Shown here: one piece after another, positions 27,062 through 34,950 of the stretch
Layout: each line of letters opens with the position of its first letter
How positions within the stretch are numbered: the stretch's first letter is position 1
Source: an uncultured Methanobrevibacter sp.
GTDB lineage: Archaea > Methanobacteriota > Methanobacteria > Methanobacteriales > Methanobacteriaceae
NCBI RefSeq assembly: GCF_946404245.1
Contig: NZ_CAMJCX010000012.1
Coordinates: forward strand, 1 to 42,127
Direction of reading: 5' to 3'
DNA: 42,127 bases
Position numbers and translations under genes: made by a program
The notes under the pieces: generated by a model
What the model was told of the DNA's origin: nothing
The model's input: the letters and a program-made list of their open reading frames with translations, nothing else
The model's database searches: none

Positions 27062-29181
27062 TTAAAAACCGATTAATTTCATCATTGAGGACAATAATCA
27101 CCACCATATTGTATATATTAGGCAGTGCTATCGCAATTTATGCAGTGGATTATATCAGCACAGATTTTACTGTTGGGCCATGGTATAATGCGTTCATCAT
27201 CGTCATAGCCGTTGCAATTGCAAATGCACTTCTCTGGCCCATATTCAGACGTTTTCTGATGAAAATAATCATATTTACTTTGGGTATCGGATCAATATTT
27301 CTTAACTCAATAATCTTTTATATCGCCTCCTTATTTATCCCTGGTGTTTCAGCAGGAGTTTATGGAGTCCTGCAAGTTACAATTGTAACTGCAATAGCCA
27401 CAACATTCGTTTCACACATTACAAACACCAATTACTACGACAGATACCTGAAAAACATTTTAAGATATGCCCTAAAACAAAAAACACAATATAAAAAGAG
27501 ATATCCTGGAGTGATAATGCTTGAAATTGATGGCCTTTCAATAAATATCCTTAAAAAAGCTATTGAAAAAGGAGTTATGCCCAACATTAAAAAATGGATA
27601 GATGACAAATCACATACTCTGAAAGGCTGGGAAACAGATTTATCTTCACAGACCGGATCAAGCCAGGCGGGAATTCTACATGGAAATAATAAGGACATTG
27701 TAGCTTATAGATGGGTTGAAAAAGAAAACAACAATCAAATGATTGTTTCCGGAAAATTAAGCGATGCTCCAGAAATAGAAAGAAGAATCAGCGATGGCAA
27801 GGGCCTGCTTGTAAACGGCATCAGCATTGCAAACATGTTTTCGGGAGACAGCAAGATTCCAACATTAACATCCTCCCAATTGAACGGCATGAAAAACATT
27901 TACAACAAAACATTGGATGCAGTGTTTTTAGATGCCTACAACTATCAAAGATTAATTGTATTGTTCTTATGGGATATAGTATTAGAGTTAAAGTCCCAAA
28001 TAGTTCATCGCGTGAAAAATATACAGCCACGACTTAGAAGAACAATTGTTTATGCTGCCGTTAGAGCAGGAGCCAATATTGCGTTAAGAGAAGCAACAAC
28101 TGATGTTTTAACAAGTGAAATTTTAACAGGAAATATTGACACCGCCTATGCAACATACATGGGCTATGATGAAATTGCCCACCATTCAGGTGTTGAGGAT
28201 GACGACGTCTGGAAAGCATTGAAATATATTGATTTTCAATTTAAAAAACTAACATCAGCCATTGAAATGAGTGATAGAAATTATGAAATTGTTGTCCTGT
28301 CAGACCACGGCCAGTCCAAGGGCGCCACTTTCAAACAGAGATATGGAATCACCTTAGGGAATTATGTTAGAAAGTTCCTTCCGGACGATATGCTGATATA
28401 TAAAACAGAATACAATATTGACCACTTCAGAGATGCAGTCATTCCTGAAAATAAACAGATCAGAAATATTAAGGACAAATTTGGAAATATCCGTGAGGAT
28501 TTATTTGAAGATATCAAATCACTGCAAGACATTAGGGATGAAGTTGAAAAAAGAAAACCTGCAATAATATTTGAAAACGAGCAATACAAAAAAATACGGG
28601 ACAGATATTCAAATAGTTTAGACTATATCAGCAAATATGAAAGTGTTGAACAGAGTACCAAAAAAGCAAAAGACTCAGAATTGATTGTTTTGGGCTCAGG
28701 CAACTTAGGTTTAATTTACTTGACCCAATGGAGTCAACGCCTTACCTATGAGGAAATAGTAATGCTGTTCCCTGATTTGATTCCAGGTCTTGTAAATCAC
28801 TCAGGAATAGGATTTATACTGGTTAATTCAATAGCCAATGGAGGAATGGTCATAGGTCAGAACGGAATTTACTATCTGGAAACCGACGAGATAATCGGTG
28901 AAAATCCTCTCAAGGGCTTTGGAGAAAATGCCGCAAGACACCTGAAAAGAGAAAATTCATTTAAAAACATGCCAGACATTTTAGTCAATAGCTTTTACGA
29001 TGAAAAATATGATGAGGTATGTGCATTTGAAGAGCTGATTGGGTCCCATGGAGGATTGGGAGGGGATCAAACCAAACCATTTATTTTATATCCCTCCGAA
29101 TGGGAAGACCCCGGCGATTTGATTGGGGCAGAATCAATATATAAATTTTTAAAAAAAGAAATAGAGAATTTAAACTCTTGA
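27058..29181 (+). CDS. Holin-like membrane domain fused to alkaline-phosphatase-superfamily domain
   Basis: A 707-residue two-part protein. Residues 1-125 have four membrane spans like the phage-holin family 4 domain (IANALLWPIFRRFLMKIIIFTLGIGSIFLN). Residues 145-707 are an alkaline phosphatase/type I phosphodiesterase domain: MLEIDGLS gives the first metal Asp, TDLSSQTGSSQAGILHG the Thr/Ser nucleophile region, GYDEIAHHSG an Asp/His pair, LSDHGQSKG a second pair, and LIGSHGGLGG the last His. It is probably a membrane-anchored phosphodiesterase or phosphotransferase acting on envelope lipids or polymers. It is coupled by ATGA to the upstream metallophosphoesterase. Its stop overlaps the SirTM stop region by 12 bases. 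Confidence 0.87.
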   Translation: MIKNRLISSLRTIITTILYILGSAIAIYAVDYISTDFTVGPWYNAFIIVIAVAIANALLWPIFRRFLMKIIIFTLGIGSIFLNSIIFYIASLFIPGVSAGVYGVLQVTIVTAIATTFVSHITNTNYYDRYLKNILRYALKQKTQYKKRYPGVIMLEIDGLSINILKKAIEKGVMPNIKKWIDDKSHTLKGWETDLSSQTGSSQAGILHGNNKDIVAYRWVEKENNNQMIVSGKLSDAPEIERRISDGKGLLVNGISIANMFSGDSKIPTLTSSQLNGMKNIYNKTLDAVFLDAYNYQRLIVLFLWDIVLELKSQIVHRVKNIQPRLRRTIVYAAVRAGANIALREATTDVLTSEILTGNIDTAYATYMGYDEIAHHSGVEDDDVWKALKYIDFQFKKLTSAIEMSDRNYEIVVLSDHGQSKGATFKQRYGITLGNYVRKFLPDDMLIYKTEYNIDHFRDAVIPENKQIRNIKDKFGNIREDLFEDIKSLQDIRDEVEKRKPAIIFENEQYKKIRDRYSNSLDYISKYESVEQSTKKAKDSELIVLGSGNLGLIYLTQWSQRLTYEEIVMLFPDLIPGLVNHSGIGFILVNSIANGGMVIGQNGIYYLETDEIIGENPLKGFGENAARHLKRENSFKNMPDILVNSFYDEKYDEVCAFEELIGSHGGLGGDQTKPFILYPSEWEDPGDLIGAESIYKFLKKEIENLNS

Positions 29182-30021
29182 AAGCCAATAGTCAAAAATC
29201 TCTGATATATCTTCATCAAACCCTATTGTCTTATCTTTATTTTGAGGAATTGCCTGAGGATAGTCCTTATTCAATCTAATTAAAGTAGTATTTGGATTGT
29301 CAAAAGTCATCTGTTCAAAAGGATATCTTATAATACCTGGAGTATTATATCCGACACCCAGTTCCAGAAATACCAGATTTTTATTCTCATCAATATGGTT
29401 TAAAAATTCTGCATATTTTCCGTTCATTTCATGCCATTTAGCATCCTCAACAAAACGATTATCAACTCTTAAATTTAATTCCATCTCTTCACCACAGATT
29501 GGGCATTTTGGTATTGATTCTGTAGGTATTTTAAAATTTTTTGTATTTTCCAACCATTCGAAAACTTGATTTTCATTTGAGTACAATTTATCATGGCATG
29601 GTTTACTACATTGTAACAAGCCGTAATCCCCTTGAGTGGCAAAAATTCTGCTATCATCAAATCCATTAATCCAAAATTGAGATTCCACATTTGTTGTTAG
29701 GATAAAATAATCCTTATTTTCAACCAATTGCAGCAGTTTTTGATAAACATCAGTTTTGCCTACATCATATCTATTTGCAAAAACGTGCCTTGCCCAATAT
29801 GCCCATTTCTCTTCAGATGTTTCAAAAGGATAAAATCCAGAAGAATACATATCAGTAAAACCGTATTCTTTTATGAAATCTTTGAAATACCTTTCAAACC
29901 TTTCCCCAGTGTACTCTATTCCTGCTGCAGTTGACAGACCTGCTCCAGCACCAATGAGAATGTAATCTGCATTTTTAATAGCATCATAAGCATTATCTAA
30001 TCTTTGTACAAAACGTTCCAT
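29170..30021 (-). CDS. SirTM-class sirtuin, protein ADP-ribosyltransferase
   Basis: A 283-residue sirtuin of the class M type. The NAD site GAGAGLSTAAGIEYTGERF is at residues 24-42. TTNVESQFWINGF carries Asn111, and ATQGDYGLLQC has Gln130 where deacetylase sirtuins have the catalytic His. A C-x3-C and C-x2-C pair (138/142 and 173/176) should bind zinc. SirTMs are known to ADP-ribosylate a lipoylated GcvH-like protein in Staphylococcus and Streptococcus, and the residues seen here match those of that class. ATG 30021 is preferred over ATG 30024 because GGTGAT ends at 30025. It lies 9 bases after the macrodomain gene. Confidence 0.9.
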   Translation of the reverse strand: MERFVQRLDNAYDAIKNADYILIGAGAGLSTAAGIEYTGERFERYFKDFIKEYGFTDMYSSGFYPFETSEEKWAYWARHVFANRYDVGKTDVYQKLLQLVENKDYFILTTNVESQFWINGFDDSRIFATQGDYGLLQCSKPCHDKLYSNENQVFEWLENTKNFKIPTESIPKCPICGEEMELNLRVDNRFVEDAKWHEMNGKYAEFLNHIDENKNLVFLELGVGYNTPGIIRYPFEQMTFDNPNTTLIRLNKDYPQAIPQNKDKTIGFDEDISEIFDYWLSRV

Positions 30022-30030
30022 CATATCACC

Positions 30031-30807
30031 TTAAAATAATAATTTTTTATATATTGAATAGTCATCATCCGTAAACACATTGAAAATAATATGTTTCAAA
30101 GTAGTTTCATTGTTTTCTAAATACTCATTAACAGTTCTAACCGCAATTTCTGCCGCCAATTCCTGAGGAAAATTGAATACCCCAGTTGAAATGCAGCAGA
30201 ATGCAATGGATTCGAGTTCATTATAGCTTGCTATTTCCAAACAGGATCTATAACAGCTGGCCAATGCCTCACAGTCATCATCTGAAGGTTTTAATCCCTG
30301 AGGGATAGCAGGCCCAACAGTATGAATTACATATTTTGAAGGCAGGTTATATGCTCCTGTGATTTTTGCCCTGCCAACTTTTTCATCCTCGTTTTGTATT
30401 TTCATTATCGTATTACACTCATCCCTTAACTGAACGCCTGCTGCTGAGTGAATAACATTGTCAATACAGTTGTGAAGAGGAATAAAGCAACCCAATAACT
30501 TTGAGTTTGCAGCATTAACAATTGCGTCCACGTCTAATGTTGCAATATCCCCCTGCCAAAGCATGAGTTTGCCATTGACTTCTTCAATATCATCAACAGA
30601 AGTCAAGTCTTTATTTAATGTTTCATTTGTTAAAAAATCATCTTGAACTTTTAAAAATTCCTCTGATACTTTAGAGGGCATTCTTACATTCATCAATGCA
30701 CGAAGCAAATTTCTTTTATCCTGATAATCCTGAGGAATATCAATTGATTCTGCTCTTTCATCTACTAAGTAATTAATTAAAAAATCCAATTGTTCGCGTG
30801 AATTCAT
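30031..30807 (-). CDS. Zinc-type macrodomain, protein-ADP-ribose hydrolase
   Basis: The 258-residue protein has the long N-terminal helical extension of the PRK04143-type family ([26 protein letters not shown]). A macrodomain follows: [42 protein letters not shown], and later [10 protein letters not shown] and [18 protein letters not shown]. Cys107, His112 and Cys114 are spaced as the zinc ligands of Zn-macrodomains, which remove ADP-ribose added by SirTM. AGGAGGGAT precedes ATG 30807. It is the first gene of the macro-SirTM operon and is divergent from the HxlR gene. Confidence 0.92.
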
Positions 30808-30863
30808 CTAATCCCTCCTAATTTGTTAATTATAATATTTATTTAGATATTTAAATGATTTTT

Positions 30864-30898
30864 GTAACTTTTAAGAAACCATGTAACCAAAAAGTAAC
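30864..30898. promoter_or_regulatory. Three GTAAC repeats between the macrodomain and HxlR genes
   Basis: GTAAC occurs at 30864, 30883 and 30894, with spacings of 19 and 11 bases, so the copies fall roughly on the same face of the helix. They lie between TATA-like sequences for the macrodomain gene (minus, near 30848-30857) and HxlR (plus, ATATATAA near 30902-30909). The latter is about 25 bases from the HxlR ATG, suggesting a leaderless or short-leader mRNA. A binding site for the HxlR protein is inferred. Confidence 0.4.
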
Positions 30899-30929
30899 TA
30901 ATATATAATAATTTAATCAAACTATCACT

Positions 30930-31313
30930 ATGAACACCGAAAAAATAATTTGTCCAGTTGACAGAACTCTAAACCTAATCAATAAAAAATGGAGCATACA
31001 AATCATAAGAGACATGTTTTTTGGCAAAAAACATTTTAAGGAATTTAAAGAGGACAAACCCAAATTAAGCAATAAAGTTTTATCAAATTGTTTAAAGGAA
31101 TTAGAAGAAAATGGTTTGATTGAAAAACATGTTTTGGACACAACACCAATAACTACAGAATATCACTTGACTGAATATGGCAAATCAATGAACAAAATCA
31201 TCTATGAACTCGCAATGTTCACATTACATGATTCAAATGACAACAGTTACTCTGACGAAATTAGAAATGATTTGAAAAAAACATTTAAAGAAAAATTAGA
31301 GATAAATGATTAA
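30930..31313 (+). CDS. HxlR-family winged-helix transcriptional regulator
   Basis: A 127-residue winged-helix protein. It starts with the family motif CPVDRTLNLINKKWSIQIIRDMFFGKKHFKEF, followed by LSNKVLSNCLKELEENGLIEK (recognition helix and turn), and YHLTEYGKSM, the wing end. The Cys near residue 9 is the conserved one used as a redox or ligand sensor in several members. It is divergent from the macrodomain-SirTM operon and just ahead of cbiE, whose ORF abuts or overlaps it. It could regulate either or both. No Shine-Dalgarno-like sequence precedes ATG 30930. Confidence 0.93.
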   Translation: MNTEKIICPVDRTLNLINKKWSIQIIRDMFFGKKHFKEFKEDKPKLSNKVLSNCLKELEENGLIEKHVLDTTPITTEYHLTEYGKSMNKIIYELAMFTLHDSNDNSYSDEIRNDLKKTFKEKLEIND

Positions 31314-32038: not shown

Positions 32039-32071
32039 TAATTGTTGATTTTAATTAAAAATTGACAATTA
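32039..32071 (+). promoter_or_regulatory. Imperfect dyad at the adhesin-like gene promoter
   Basis: A 33-base imperfect inverted repeat (outer TAATTGT and ACAATTA) ends just before the ribosome binding site of the adhesin-like gene. A TATA-like CATATATTAAG near 32017-32027 would place transcription start inside it. An operator or 5'-leader hairpin is possible. Confidence 0.35.
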
Positions 32072-32082
32072 AGGTAGATATT

Positions 32083-34950
32083 ATGAATGCAAAAATAAAC
32101 ACCATATGTTTTGTTTTCATATTGCTCTTTTTAATTTCTGCCGTTTCAGCTGCAGACAATGAAAATGAAACATTACAACAAATTCAACCGGAATCCCAGG
32201 AGGATTTGACTACATTAAGTGTATCGAACAATGATGTTCAAAACATTGAAAAATTAAGTGCAACACAGACTGTCGAAAAGAAAAAGGTCACTTTAAGCGC
32301 TCCCGACGTTAAAATGCATTACAAGGACGGAAGCAAATTTACGGTGACTTTAAAATACAAAAAGAAGGTTATCTCCAATGCAAAAATACAGATCAATATC
32401 AATGGTCAAAGTTTTACAAAAACCACCGACAAGACAGGAAAGGCATCGATTAATCTCAATTACAAAAGTGGAACGTATACTGTCTTAAGCATATGCAATG
32501 GAAACAGTGAATTTGAGGGCGCCACCGCCAAAAGCACAGTGACGATAAAAAGTACCATAAAATGCAGCGATTATTCAAAATACTATAAGAATACCGGAAA
32601 ATACTCCTCGACATTTTATGACAAAAAGGGAAAACTTCTTAAAAATACCGCAATAAAATTCAAGCTAAATGGCAAGGTCACTTCCGTTAAAACCAACAAT
32701 AAAGGAGTTGCAACACTAGCCATCAATTTAAAGCCCGGAAAATATTCCATCGTCGTTACAAATCCCAAAACTACTGAAAGCCTGACAAAGACAGTTACGA
32801 TAAAATCATTGATTGTGACAAATGACCTGACCTTTAACGAGACTCAAAAGGCAAAATTCAATGTTAAAATCCTAAACAGCAATGGCAAAGCCTCACCCAA
32901 TAAAAAAGTTACATTGAAAGTAAACGGAAAAACATATACCAAAACCACAAATAAAAACGGTATCGCAACACTTGATTTAAGTTTATCCAATGGAAAATAT
33001 ACAATAACAACACAATATTCCGATTTAACAGTTAAAAATAAAATAACAGTTAATAAAGCGATAAATCCCAGTAGATATACTCATACAATTTTTATTCCGA
33101 ATTATGTCAATGTGACCTTAACCCATGTGTTTGAAAATTCAGCATACACAATAAAATCCGGATTAAACGGAATCATAAAAATGCCTAAAAATGAGATTTT
33201 TACCGTACAGATTGGCGATAAAAGTTATTTGTTTTCCAATATCCGAATTGATGGAGTAAATTCCACACTGATAGGATATAAATACCACTTAATACCTTTA
33301 GACGGAAGCGGAGTGAAAAGTGACACTAACAGAAGCAATTTAAAGGGAAATGGAATCATCATTTCAAAAATTAACGGATTTACTCAAATAGACTACCAGT
33401 CAAACACCAAGGACAATCTAGAACTCTTCGGATTTTATGCAGACAAGGGCCTTCAAAACAGCGAAACATTCACATATATGCAAAACGACAAGATAACCGC
33501 AAAAGTTAACGTCATGACACAAAGCTATGACGAAATGGGCGTGAAATACAGCCTATCAAAATTCTATCAAAAAACGATTTATGACTTTAACTACAAAAGC
33601 TATGACGAGATTACTAATTACAATACTAATTCTATCAGATTTACAAACACCAACATCCCAGTGACATTTACATATTTCGGACGAAGCATTGAAGGATATG
33701 TATCCAAAGAGGACATCATTACAAAATTTTTTGTAAATGGTGAGGAAAAGCTTGAAAAAGGAGAAACAATCAGCTATGGATTAGCTGACAAATACCGGAA
33801 AACACTGGGTTTTGAGGTATTGCAGGCATACAGCATAATCAATGATAAAATAACTCCTGAACTCTTAAAGAGTTGGGTAAATAAAAACAATCTTTATTTA
33901 AACCGTTTTGGAGTCATGAATGTTTATGGCATGCATTTGGCATCCCTTGAAACCACATGGCTTGCAGACAAAATAGCAGATGAATATGCCGGCCAATTTG
34001 CAGTAACATGGAATCGTGGAGATACATTGACAATACTTGGAGGAATAAATCTGGACGATACCTATCTGAATGTTTTAGATTCAGATATGGGAATGTCAGT
34101 TAAAGGAAATAAAGACAATGTGAGTTTATTCAGGTTAATGAATTCACTTCAGCTGCCAAATATTGAGGAATATTGCCTTGAAGAAATTTCAGCAAGATTC
34201 ATGGACACAACAACCAACTCACAGGACAATATCCTCATGGCAATAGCTAACAACAAAACCAGCATAGTGCAATTTGGTGAAATGCTATACCTTTTTGCTG
34301 AAGATGGGAGCAATTCCGCAATTGTGCTCAATTCCACCAGCGGAGTTTCAAGTGTAATCTATTCCCATAATGGTGCAACCTATAAGGGTTCATCGATTGC
34401 CACAAGCTGTGACTGCTGCAGCGTTGGCATGATACCTAAAGACACAATATCCGGAATAAAAACTGCATTGAACATCCTTACGCCCCTAACAAAACTCTAT
34501 GACATAATAAATCAGATACACCCTTTAAGCAAAATATTATATAAGATTTCAACATTCATTGCGGGAAAAGTGGTTCCAGGCGCTACAAAATCTTTTTTAA
34601 GTCTTTTAGGATCAATGGTTTTCATACAGCAAATGGGTGTTGATGCAAGAAACGAATTTATTGACGAAAAGGATTGGCACATGGTCATGGATACAATAAC
34701 ATTCACACGTCCTGGATACCAGCAGGACAAAAAGGTGTATAACATCCCAAACAATAAGGGCGGATATGACTACATTGAAGTTGAAATCAATAGTGACCTC
34801 AGTTTAAATAGAAATAACGCAATATATATAAGTGATGGACAAACAAAGAAATTAACAAAGTCTGAAACATACAAGTATTTCAGTGATGAAAGTTGGTCAC
34901 CCTTCAGCATGCCAACAAAATACTGGGATAAAAGCTGGAAGATATCATGA
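32083..34950 (+). CDS. Secreted adhesin-like protein with three Ig-like repeats
   Basis: A 955-residue exported protein. Residues 1-23 form a signal peptide (TICFVFILLFLISAVSA, then ADNE). An Asn/Gln/Ser-rich linker is followed by three tandem Big/Ig-like repeats (about residues 65-155, 156-240 and 243-330). Each repeat has a '(T)VTLK.NGK..TKTTNK.GIATL.L..GKYTI' pattern, as in Methanobrevibacter adhesin-like proteins. The remaining 620 residues are a single unrecognised region containing a SCDCCSVGMIP cluster near 775 and a hydrophobic stretch near 838-855. The start ATG 32083 is supported by the signal peptide and an AAGGTAGAT site. It is followed by two small membrane proteins in one operon. 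Confidence 0.87.
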   Translation: MNAKINTICFVFILLFLISAVSAADNENETLQQIQPESQEDLTTLSVSNNDVQNIEKLSATQTVEKKKVTLSAPDVKMHYKDGSKFTVTLKYKKKVISNAKIQININGQSFTKTTDKTGKASINLNYKSGTYTVLSICNGNSEFEGATAKSTVTIKSTIKCSDYSKYYKNTGKYSSTFYDKKGKLLKNTAIKFKLNGKVTSVKTNNKGVATLAINLKPGKYSIVVTNPKTTESLTKTVTIKSLIVTNDLTFNETQKAKFNVKILNSNGKASPNKKVTLKVNGKTYTKTTNKNGIATLDLSLSNGKYTITTQYSDLTVKNKITVNKAINPSRYTHTIFIPNYVNVTLTHVFENSAYTIKSGLNGIIKMPKNEIFTVQIGDKSYLFSNIRIDGVNSTLIGYKYHLIPLDGSGVKSDTNRSNLKGNGIIISKINGFTQIDYQSNTKDNLELFGFYADKGLQNSETFTYMQNDKITAKVNVMTQSYDEMGVKYSLSKFYQKTIYDFNYKSYDEITNYNTNSIRFTNTNIPVTFTYFGRSIEGYVSKEDIITKFFVNGEEKLEKGETISYGLADKYRKTLGFEVLQAYSIINDKITPELLKSWVNKNNLYLNRFGVMNVYGMHLASLETTWLADKIADEYAGQFAVTWNRGDTLTILGGINLDDTYLNVLDSDMGMSVKGNKDNVSLFRLMNSLQLPNIEEYCLEEISARFMDTTTNSQDNILMAIANNKTSIVQFGEMLYLFAEDGSNSAIVLNSTSGVSSVIYSHNGATYKGSSIATSCDCCSVGMIPKDTISGIKTALNILTPLTKLYDIINQIHPLSKILYKISTFIAGKVVPGATKSFLSLLGSMVFIQQMGVDARNEFIDEKDWHMVMDTITFTRPGYQQDKKVYNIPNNKGGYDYIEVEINSDLSLNRNNAIYISDGQTKKLTKSETYKYFSDESWSPFSMPTKYWDKSWKIS

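Follow-up and report, generated by a model that had tools for sequence, protein, structure and literature searches.

We analysed a 42,127-nucleotide stretch of DNA from a gut methanogen, an uncultured Methanobrevibacter sp. (contig NZ_CAMJCX010000012.1, hereafter the window), in which a sequence-only reading had proposed an adjacent pair of minus-strand genes at 29170-30807, encoding a sirtuin that writes protein ADP-ribosylation and a macrodomain that erases it. Both open reading frames were observed where that reading placed them. The macrodomain gene (Zn-Macro, 30807 to 30031) is followed head to tail, after a gap of 6 bp, by the sirtuin gene (SirTM, 30024 to 29170), and an HxlR regulator is encoded divergently. 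The features of the locus are:

29170-30024, minus strand: SirTM (class M sirtuin), a predicted protein mono-ADP-ribosyltransferase of 284 aa, with N112, Q131, R186 and zinc cysteines 139/143/174/177
30031-30807, minus strand: Zn-macrodomain ADP-ribosyl hydrolase, 258 aa, first gene of the two-gene operon, with zinc loop C107, H112, C114 (NF003163; 8rsi)
30850-30856, minus strand: TATA-like TTTAAAT (in tatttaaatga), a predicted Macro-SirTM promoter kept in the genus intergenic alignment
30864-30898, no strand assigned: predicted HxlR operator of two 5-N6-5 boxes, with half-sites GTAAC at 30864, GAAAC at 30875, GTAAC at 30883 and GTAAC at 30894
30902-30908, plus strand: TATA-like TATATAA, a predicted HxlR promoter
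30930-31313, plus strand: divergent HxlR/DUF24-type regulator, 127 aa, with an N-terminal Cys8, placed by comparison in the same gain/loss cassette as the pair

The identity of the two enzymes is near certain. PDB matches to the SirTM by phmmer were SpySirTM (5a3a, 2e-61) and the fungal macro-SirTM fusion Mfs1 (8rsn, 1e-31), with no other chain at E<=0.001, while searches of Pfam and NCBIfam gave no match. An AF2 model of the protein (pLDDT 95.6) was closest to 5a3a (TM 0.93, rmsd 1.6 A) and then to 8rsn; canonical sirtuins reached a TM of only about 0.6. Asn112, Gln131 and Arg186 align with N118, Q137 and R192 of SpySirTM, where mutation causes activity to fall dramatically (PMC4518038), and Q131-G132 stands where deacylases have HG. 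The zinc cysteines (C139/C143/C174/C177) and a GVGYNTP motif (residues 223-229) were also present. Across 98 intact relatives (24 archaeal and 74 bacterial SirTMs), the catalytic Asn, Gln and Arg, the four cysteines and the checked GVGxxTP positions were identical. We predict from these residues that the protein is an NAD+-dependent protein ADP-ribosyltransferase without deacylation. Its partner scored 363 bits for the NCBIfam protein-ADP-ribose hydrolase NF003163 (cut-off 272) and aligned along its entire length with 8rsi (6e-124), which is the MorMacro protein of Methanobrevibacter oralis (Ariza et al. 2024, PMC11490716). It has both defining features of a Zn-Macro, the Cys-x4-His-x-Cys zinc loop (C107/H112/C114) and, as covered by the 8rsi match, the N-terminal 3-helix bundle region. 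Almost every archaeal SirTM locus, and 66 of 75 bacterial ones, has an adjoining macrodomain. The proposed writer and eraser are thus borne out by the 5a3a and 8rsi matches and the intact residues, and a loss of the SirTM active site, which had been considered, was not the case. Cys107, His112 and Cys114 of the macrodomain had been numbered exactly; Asn111 and Gln130 of the sirtuin were the right residues but become 112 and 131 from the first ATG, the earlier count having begun at the second ATG of a consecutive pair.

Additional SirTM copies were observed in relatives. One sister genus has a tandem second SirTM 3' of Macro-SirTM (L176:7509-8411(+), L177:7603-8460(+), L178:5669-6523(-), L179:1990-2844(-)), about 35% identical to the window SirTM, with the zinc Cys4 retained, Q131 replaced by N, R186 by T and a broken GVGxxTP; it looks like a conserved pseudo-sirtuin. 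A divergent second SirTM in genome G002 (L055:8064-8894(+), 38-40% identity) has its motifs intact and no adjoining macrodomain, and is surrounded by four HxlR genes, FMN reductases and PNPOx genes.

To our knowledge, no SirTM target other than lipoylated GcvH-L has been described. A genome-wide profile search of the source genome (1.83 Mb, 87% complete) gave no GCV_H protein, and LipA gave nothing above cut-off. Its single Biotin_lipoyl protein (PF00364) was the C-terminal EAMKMEN domain of a PycB-like biotin carrier, its one BPL/LplA-type protein was a biotin ligase adjoining a pycA-like gene, and no lipoyl-carrier or ligase gene was found within the window. With no GCV_H, no LipA and only a carrier and ligase of biotin type, lipoylated GcvH-L is therefore very probably absent from this methanogen. 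None of 36 congeners had GcvH over cut-off, and nearly all had a single BPL; the sub-threshold matches in two of them (G004, G014) were ORFs of 574-580 aa adjoining an OYE homologue, as expected for PycB. No GcvH gene was observed near SirTM in the 75 bacterial loci, among which the stand-alone form was the only form. The sequence-only reading had reported the pair to be without lipoyl-carrier genes, which was confirmed in the window, the source genome and the congeners, and had left its substrate unassigned, which the missing lipoyl machinery supports. It had also allowed for a split version of the known system, and the rest of the genome yielded no GcvH-L/LplA pair.

The extended operon of S. 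aureus and S. pyogenes contains GcvH-L, LplA2, Macro, SirTM, OYE and LLM (Rack et al. 2015, PMC4518038). The window pair shares with it the orthologous writer/eraser chemistry and the N/Q/R catalytic residues; unlike it, the window genome has no detected GcvH-L or lipoate ligase, and the pair is linked to HxlR instead. Having neither carrier nor ligase, and so lacking the GcvH-L and LplA2 that mark the extended form, it fits the minimal Zn-Macro/SirTM operon. One could suppose that the biotinyl carrier PycB takes the place of lipoyl-GcvH-L as the target, since the genome searches found no other swinging-arm protein of biotinyl/lipoyl type, and an adjoining OYE homologue echoes the extended operon. 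We consider this very improbable: PycB shares no operon with SirTM, both PycB and the adjoining OYE occur in congeners without SirTM (G004, G014), and the charged patch used for GcvH-L is missing in MorMacro (PMC11490716). The occurrence in SirTM-less congeners also led us to reject PycB and OYE as special partners of SirTM. The OYE-family gene adjoining the PycB gene lies at L001:1804-2805(+).

The closest described system is the minimal operon of M. oralis, from which Ariza et al. (2024) solved MorMacro (8RSI/8RSJ/8RSK), stating its substrate to be unknown; the enzyme strips Glu/Asp-linked ADP-ribose from PARP1 E988Q and not from lipoyl-GcvH-L (PMC11490716). The window locus agrees with it in family, gene pair, zinc loop and type of operon. 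The core of the finding is already published, and the window holds a further well-formed minimal Zn-Macro/SirTM system. A stand-alone pair in a methanogen had been presented as unusual, a view that the 2024 report and the bacterial loci do not support. The present case differs in its species, and what it adds is the HxlR cassette with its empty site, a conserved operator, the same box in bacteria, the genome-wide absence of lipoyl genes, and redox and ACGX neighbourhoods; HxlR had no mention in the searched text of PMC11490716, where the operator, the behaviour of the cassette and the genome-wide lack of lipoyl genes were likewise missing.

SirTM was observed in 21 of the 37 genus genomes searched, and in 75 of 152 Methanobacteriota genomes, these belonging to 4 of 20 genera, all of one family. 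The usual order in congeners is (phosphodiesterase-like, 707 aa)-SirTM-Macro-HxlR-(tetrapyrrole methylase). Six SirTM-lacking congeners showed an empty site, the flanking genes being joined within about 75 bp without SirTM, Macro or HxlR, and five others had no match to any of the three within 1.5 kb. The intact trio was relocated beside a PNPOx-like gene in three genomes (G028, G003, G096); loci at which HxlR-Macro-SirTM was found as a unit in another place are L044, L048 and L193. Because the empty sites lose all three genes and the relocated loci keep all three, HxlR travels with the pair, and on this comparative evidence HxlR, Zn-Macro and SirTM are one gain/loss cassette, which we take to be mobile. 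Beside the cassette, at 32062-34950 of the window, is a gene for a 962 aa predicted exported, repeat-containing, adhesin-like protein that is syntenic in the genus.

At least 594 matching stretches were present in GTDB genomes, and the best 80 of these, a sample that leans to near relatives, came mostly from gut Clostridia and Bacteroidales. A search of viral contigs found no SirTM. Repeated transfer of SirTM between domains is suggested by the tree, in which the archaeal sequences, placed among Bacillota, make up two or more supported clades (98/94 and 99/99). This nesting in several clades among gut Bacillota, together with the patchy presence within the genus, would also suit genes that are horizontal-transfer relics with no selected function. 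We give that explanation hardly any credence, as tens of species share the operator and every catalytic and zinc residue checked, and loss is clean with no decay seen.

The regulator matched PF01638 with 79.9 bits (cut-off 20.8), and its Cys8 was retained in 52 of 54 HxlR proteins. An HxlR gene was found within 3 kb of SirTM in 37 of the 75 bacterial loci, with 38 matches inside that distance (31 of them upstream and divergent) and only 3 beyond it, counts that carry a mild bias since the profile was built from the same loci. The operator block sits between TTTAAAT on the Macro side and TATATAA on the HxlR side, the latter about 25 bp from the HxlR ATG and consistent with a leaderless mRNA, and was conserved in 24 distinct genus intergenic sequences. 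Its mean identity was 0.81 versus 0.74 for the remaining short intergenic region, and within-genus conservation alone is not decisive. Recurrence across lineages points more strongly to a true operator. Exact or degenerate GTWAC-N6-GTWAC boxes recur 5' of HxlR, PNPOx or Macro where the cassette has been relocated, and also in further genera whose proteins are 40-60% identical. Among 35 HxlR genes associated with SirTM in Bacillota and other bacteria, 21 had a box with at most one mismatch in the upstream region. The bacterial HxlR upstream regions contained 25 box sites, where 1.1 were expected from dinucleotide shuffles, with a consensus near TAGTTACCAAAAGGNAACTATTG. A regulon scan covered 1.61 of 1.83 Mb of the source genome; there, only the window box had an A-rich spacer, and the 11 remaining matches to the pattern were at about chance level.

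HxlR control of the ADP-ribosylation pair is well supported by these comparisons, and the regulator probably acts as a repressor. YodB, of the same family, senses through Cys6 and binds the palindrome TACT-N7-AGTA (PMC8063818). The window regulator resembles YodB (B. subtilis) and QsrR (S. aureus) in its winged-helix family, its N-terminal Cys and a palindromic site across two major grooves; unlike them, it has a predicted GTWAC-N6-GTWAC operator and would control ADP-ribosylation genes, and thiol sensing is proposed for it by analogy. The earlier suggestion that a divergent HxlR with a conserved Cys may provide a redox input gained strength from the conserved operator and Cys8.

Redox genes were observed beside SirTM in relatives. 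In archaea these neighbours included rubrerythrin, an F420H2-oxidase-like flavodiiron protein (FprA) and a C_GCAxxG_C_C protein at L044, a glutathione peroxidase with a flavodoxin-like gene and an EFR1 ferredoxin at L180, FMN reductase at L055, and PNPOx. PNPOx-ferredoxin-type matches were found in 25 loci, all bacterial save one (L055), and further bacterial neighbours were Rrf2, an NAD(P)-binding protein, a nitroreductase and DUF1848. A defence or toxin-antitoxin module, with Macro as the antidote to a SirTM that depletes NAD or modifies a vital target, would account for the pairing of writer and eraser, the position of Macro upstream of SirTM and the patchy gain and loss. That role seems quite unlikely to us, as the neighbouring genes are of redox and not of defence type, SirTMs are transferases with high target specificity (PMC4518038), and no PADLOC model matched SirTM, Macro or HxlR, on which ground an anti-phage function was rejected. 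A PNPOx-like protein was likewise rejected as a universal partner, a close orthologue being missing from the source genome. Separately, in another genus of the family, a glutathione peroxidase homologue and a flavodoxin-like gene lie directly 3' of (Macro-)SirTM (L180:7611-8572, L181:7440-9300, L189:5172-6124), and a DUF1848 protein adjoins several bacterial SirTM operons (L065, L068, L078 and others).

In two related archaea (G013, G133; loci L221, L222) the same box flanks a second HxlR operon. It encodes a peptide in which an ACGS unit is repeated six to seven times, a radical SAM/SPASM enzyme whose scores for TIGR04340 of the ACGX system are 574 and 566 bits (cut-off 400), and, in addition, a PIG3-like oxidoreductase and a PNPOx-ferredoxin. 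The ACGX radical SAM enzyme was also clustered upstream of Zn-Macro/SirTM in 8 of the 75 bacterial loci (L073, L080, L084, L094, L102, L126, L133, L134); seven of these had a recognisable Cys-repeat peptide, and TIGR04341 was observed in all four tested. The ACGX modified-peptide system (TIGR04340 with TIGR04341) thus appears to be linked to ADP-ribosylation, a link apparently unreported, the word ACGX giving no relevant paper in the open literature searched. By extension from this bacterial clustering and the shared archaeal box, the substrate of the window SirTM might be a modified peptide rich in thiols, or some other redox carrier. We think this unlikely for the window: the association occurs in just those 8 bacterial loci, and neither enzyme nor peptide was found in the read part of the source genome, so that ACGX cannot be claimed as a SirTM target here.

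We place a probability of roughly 65% on a system that, under the control of HxlR, reversibly ADP-ribosylates a non-lipoylated target when the cell is exposed to oxidative or electrophile stress. In the unstressed cell an HxlR dimer would occupy the GTWAC-N6-GTWAC boxes, which lie between the TATA boxes, and hold both promoters low. Oxidants or electrophiles, the likely stress signal, would modify the conserved Cys8 and release HxlR. SirTM would then use NAD+ to place mono-ADP-ribose on an acidic side chain of a target that is encoded on the chromosome and not lipoylated, an acidic linkage being proposed by analogy with the published MorMacro activity, and Zn-Macro would hydrolyse the bond and reset the target. 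Several observations weigh against this account. No redox gene adjoins the window cassette, and its flanking genes also adjoin each other in cassette-less genomes. Conservation of Cys8 is weak evidence for sensing, because an N-terminal Cys is common among HxlR/DUF24 proteins. Two SirTM-bearing congeners had no HxlR match at the locus, with the box still there (L043:9012-9176, L053:9690-9791), which suggests that these boxes are controlled by an HxlR encoded elsewhere.

A wider and much more tentative proposal, which we hold to be doubtful, is that the lipoate-free SirTM/Zn-Macro system is a redox module in both domains. A Cys-type HxlR and one operator would control the pair together with flavin and Fe-S oxidoreductases and, in a subset, an ACGX peptide; that peptide would replace the lipoyl carrier as SirTM partner or target, and the window would hold a reduced archaeal version whose target is an equivalent thiol carrier with its gene at another site.

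GcvH-L is missing from the operons of most SirTM genes observed in this analysis, and in lipoate-free methanogens lipoylated GcvH very probably plays no part, so that it cannot be the general SirTM target. A common HxlR operator would make the inducing signal testable and partners findable by regulon. The apparent ACGX link offers modified Cys-rich peptides as a concrete class of candidates, in bacteria that have both in one operon.

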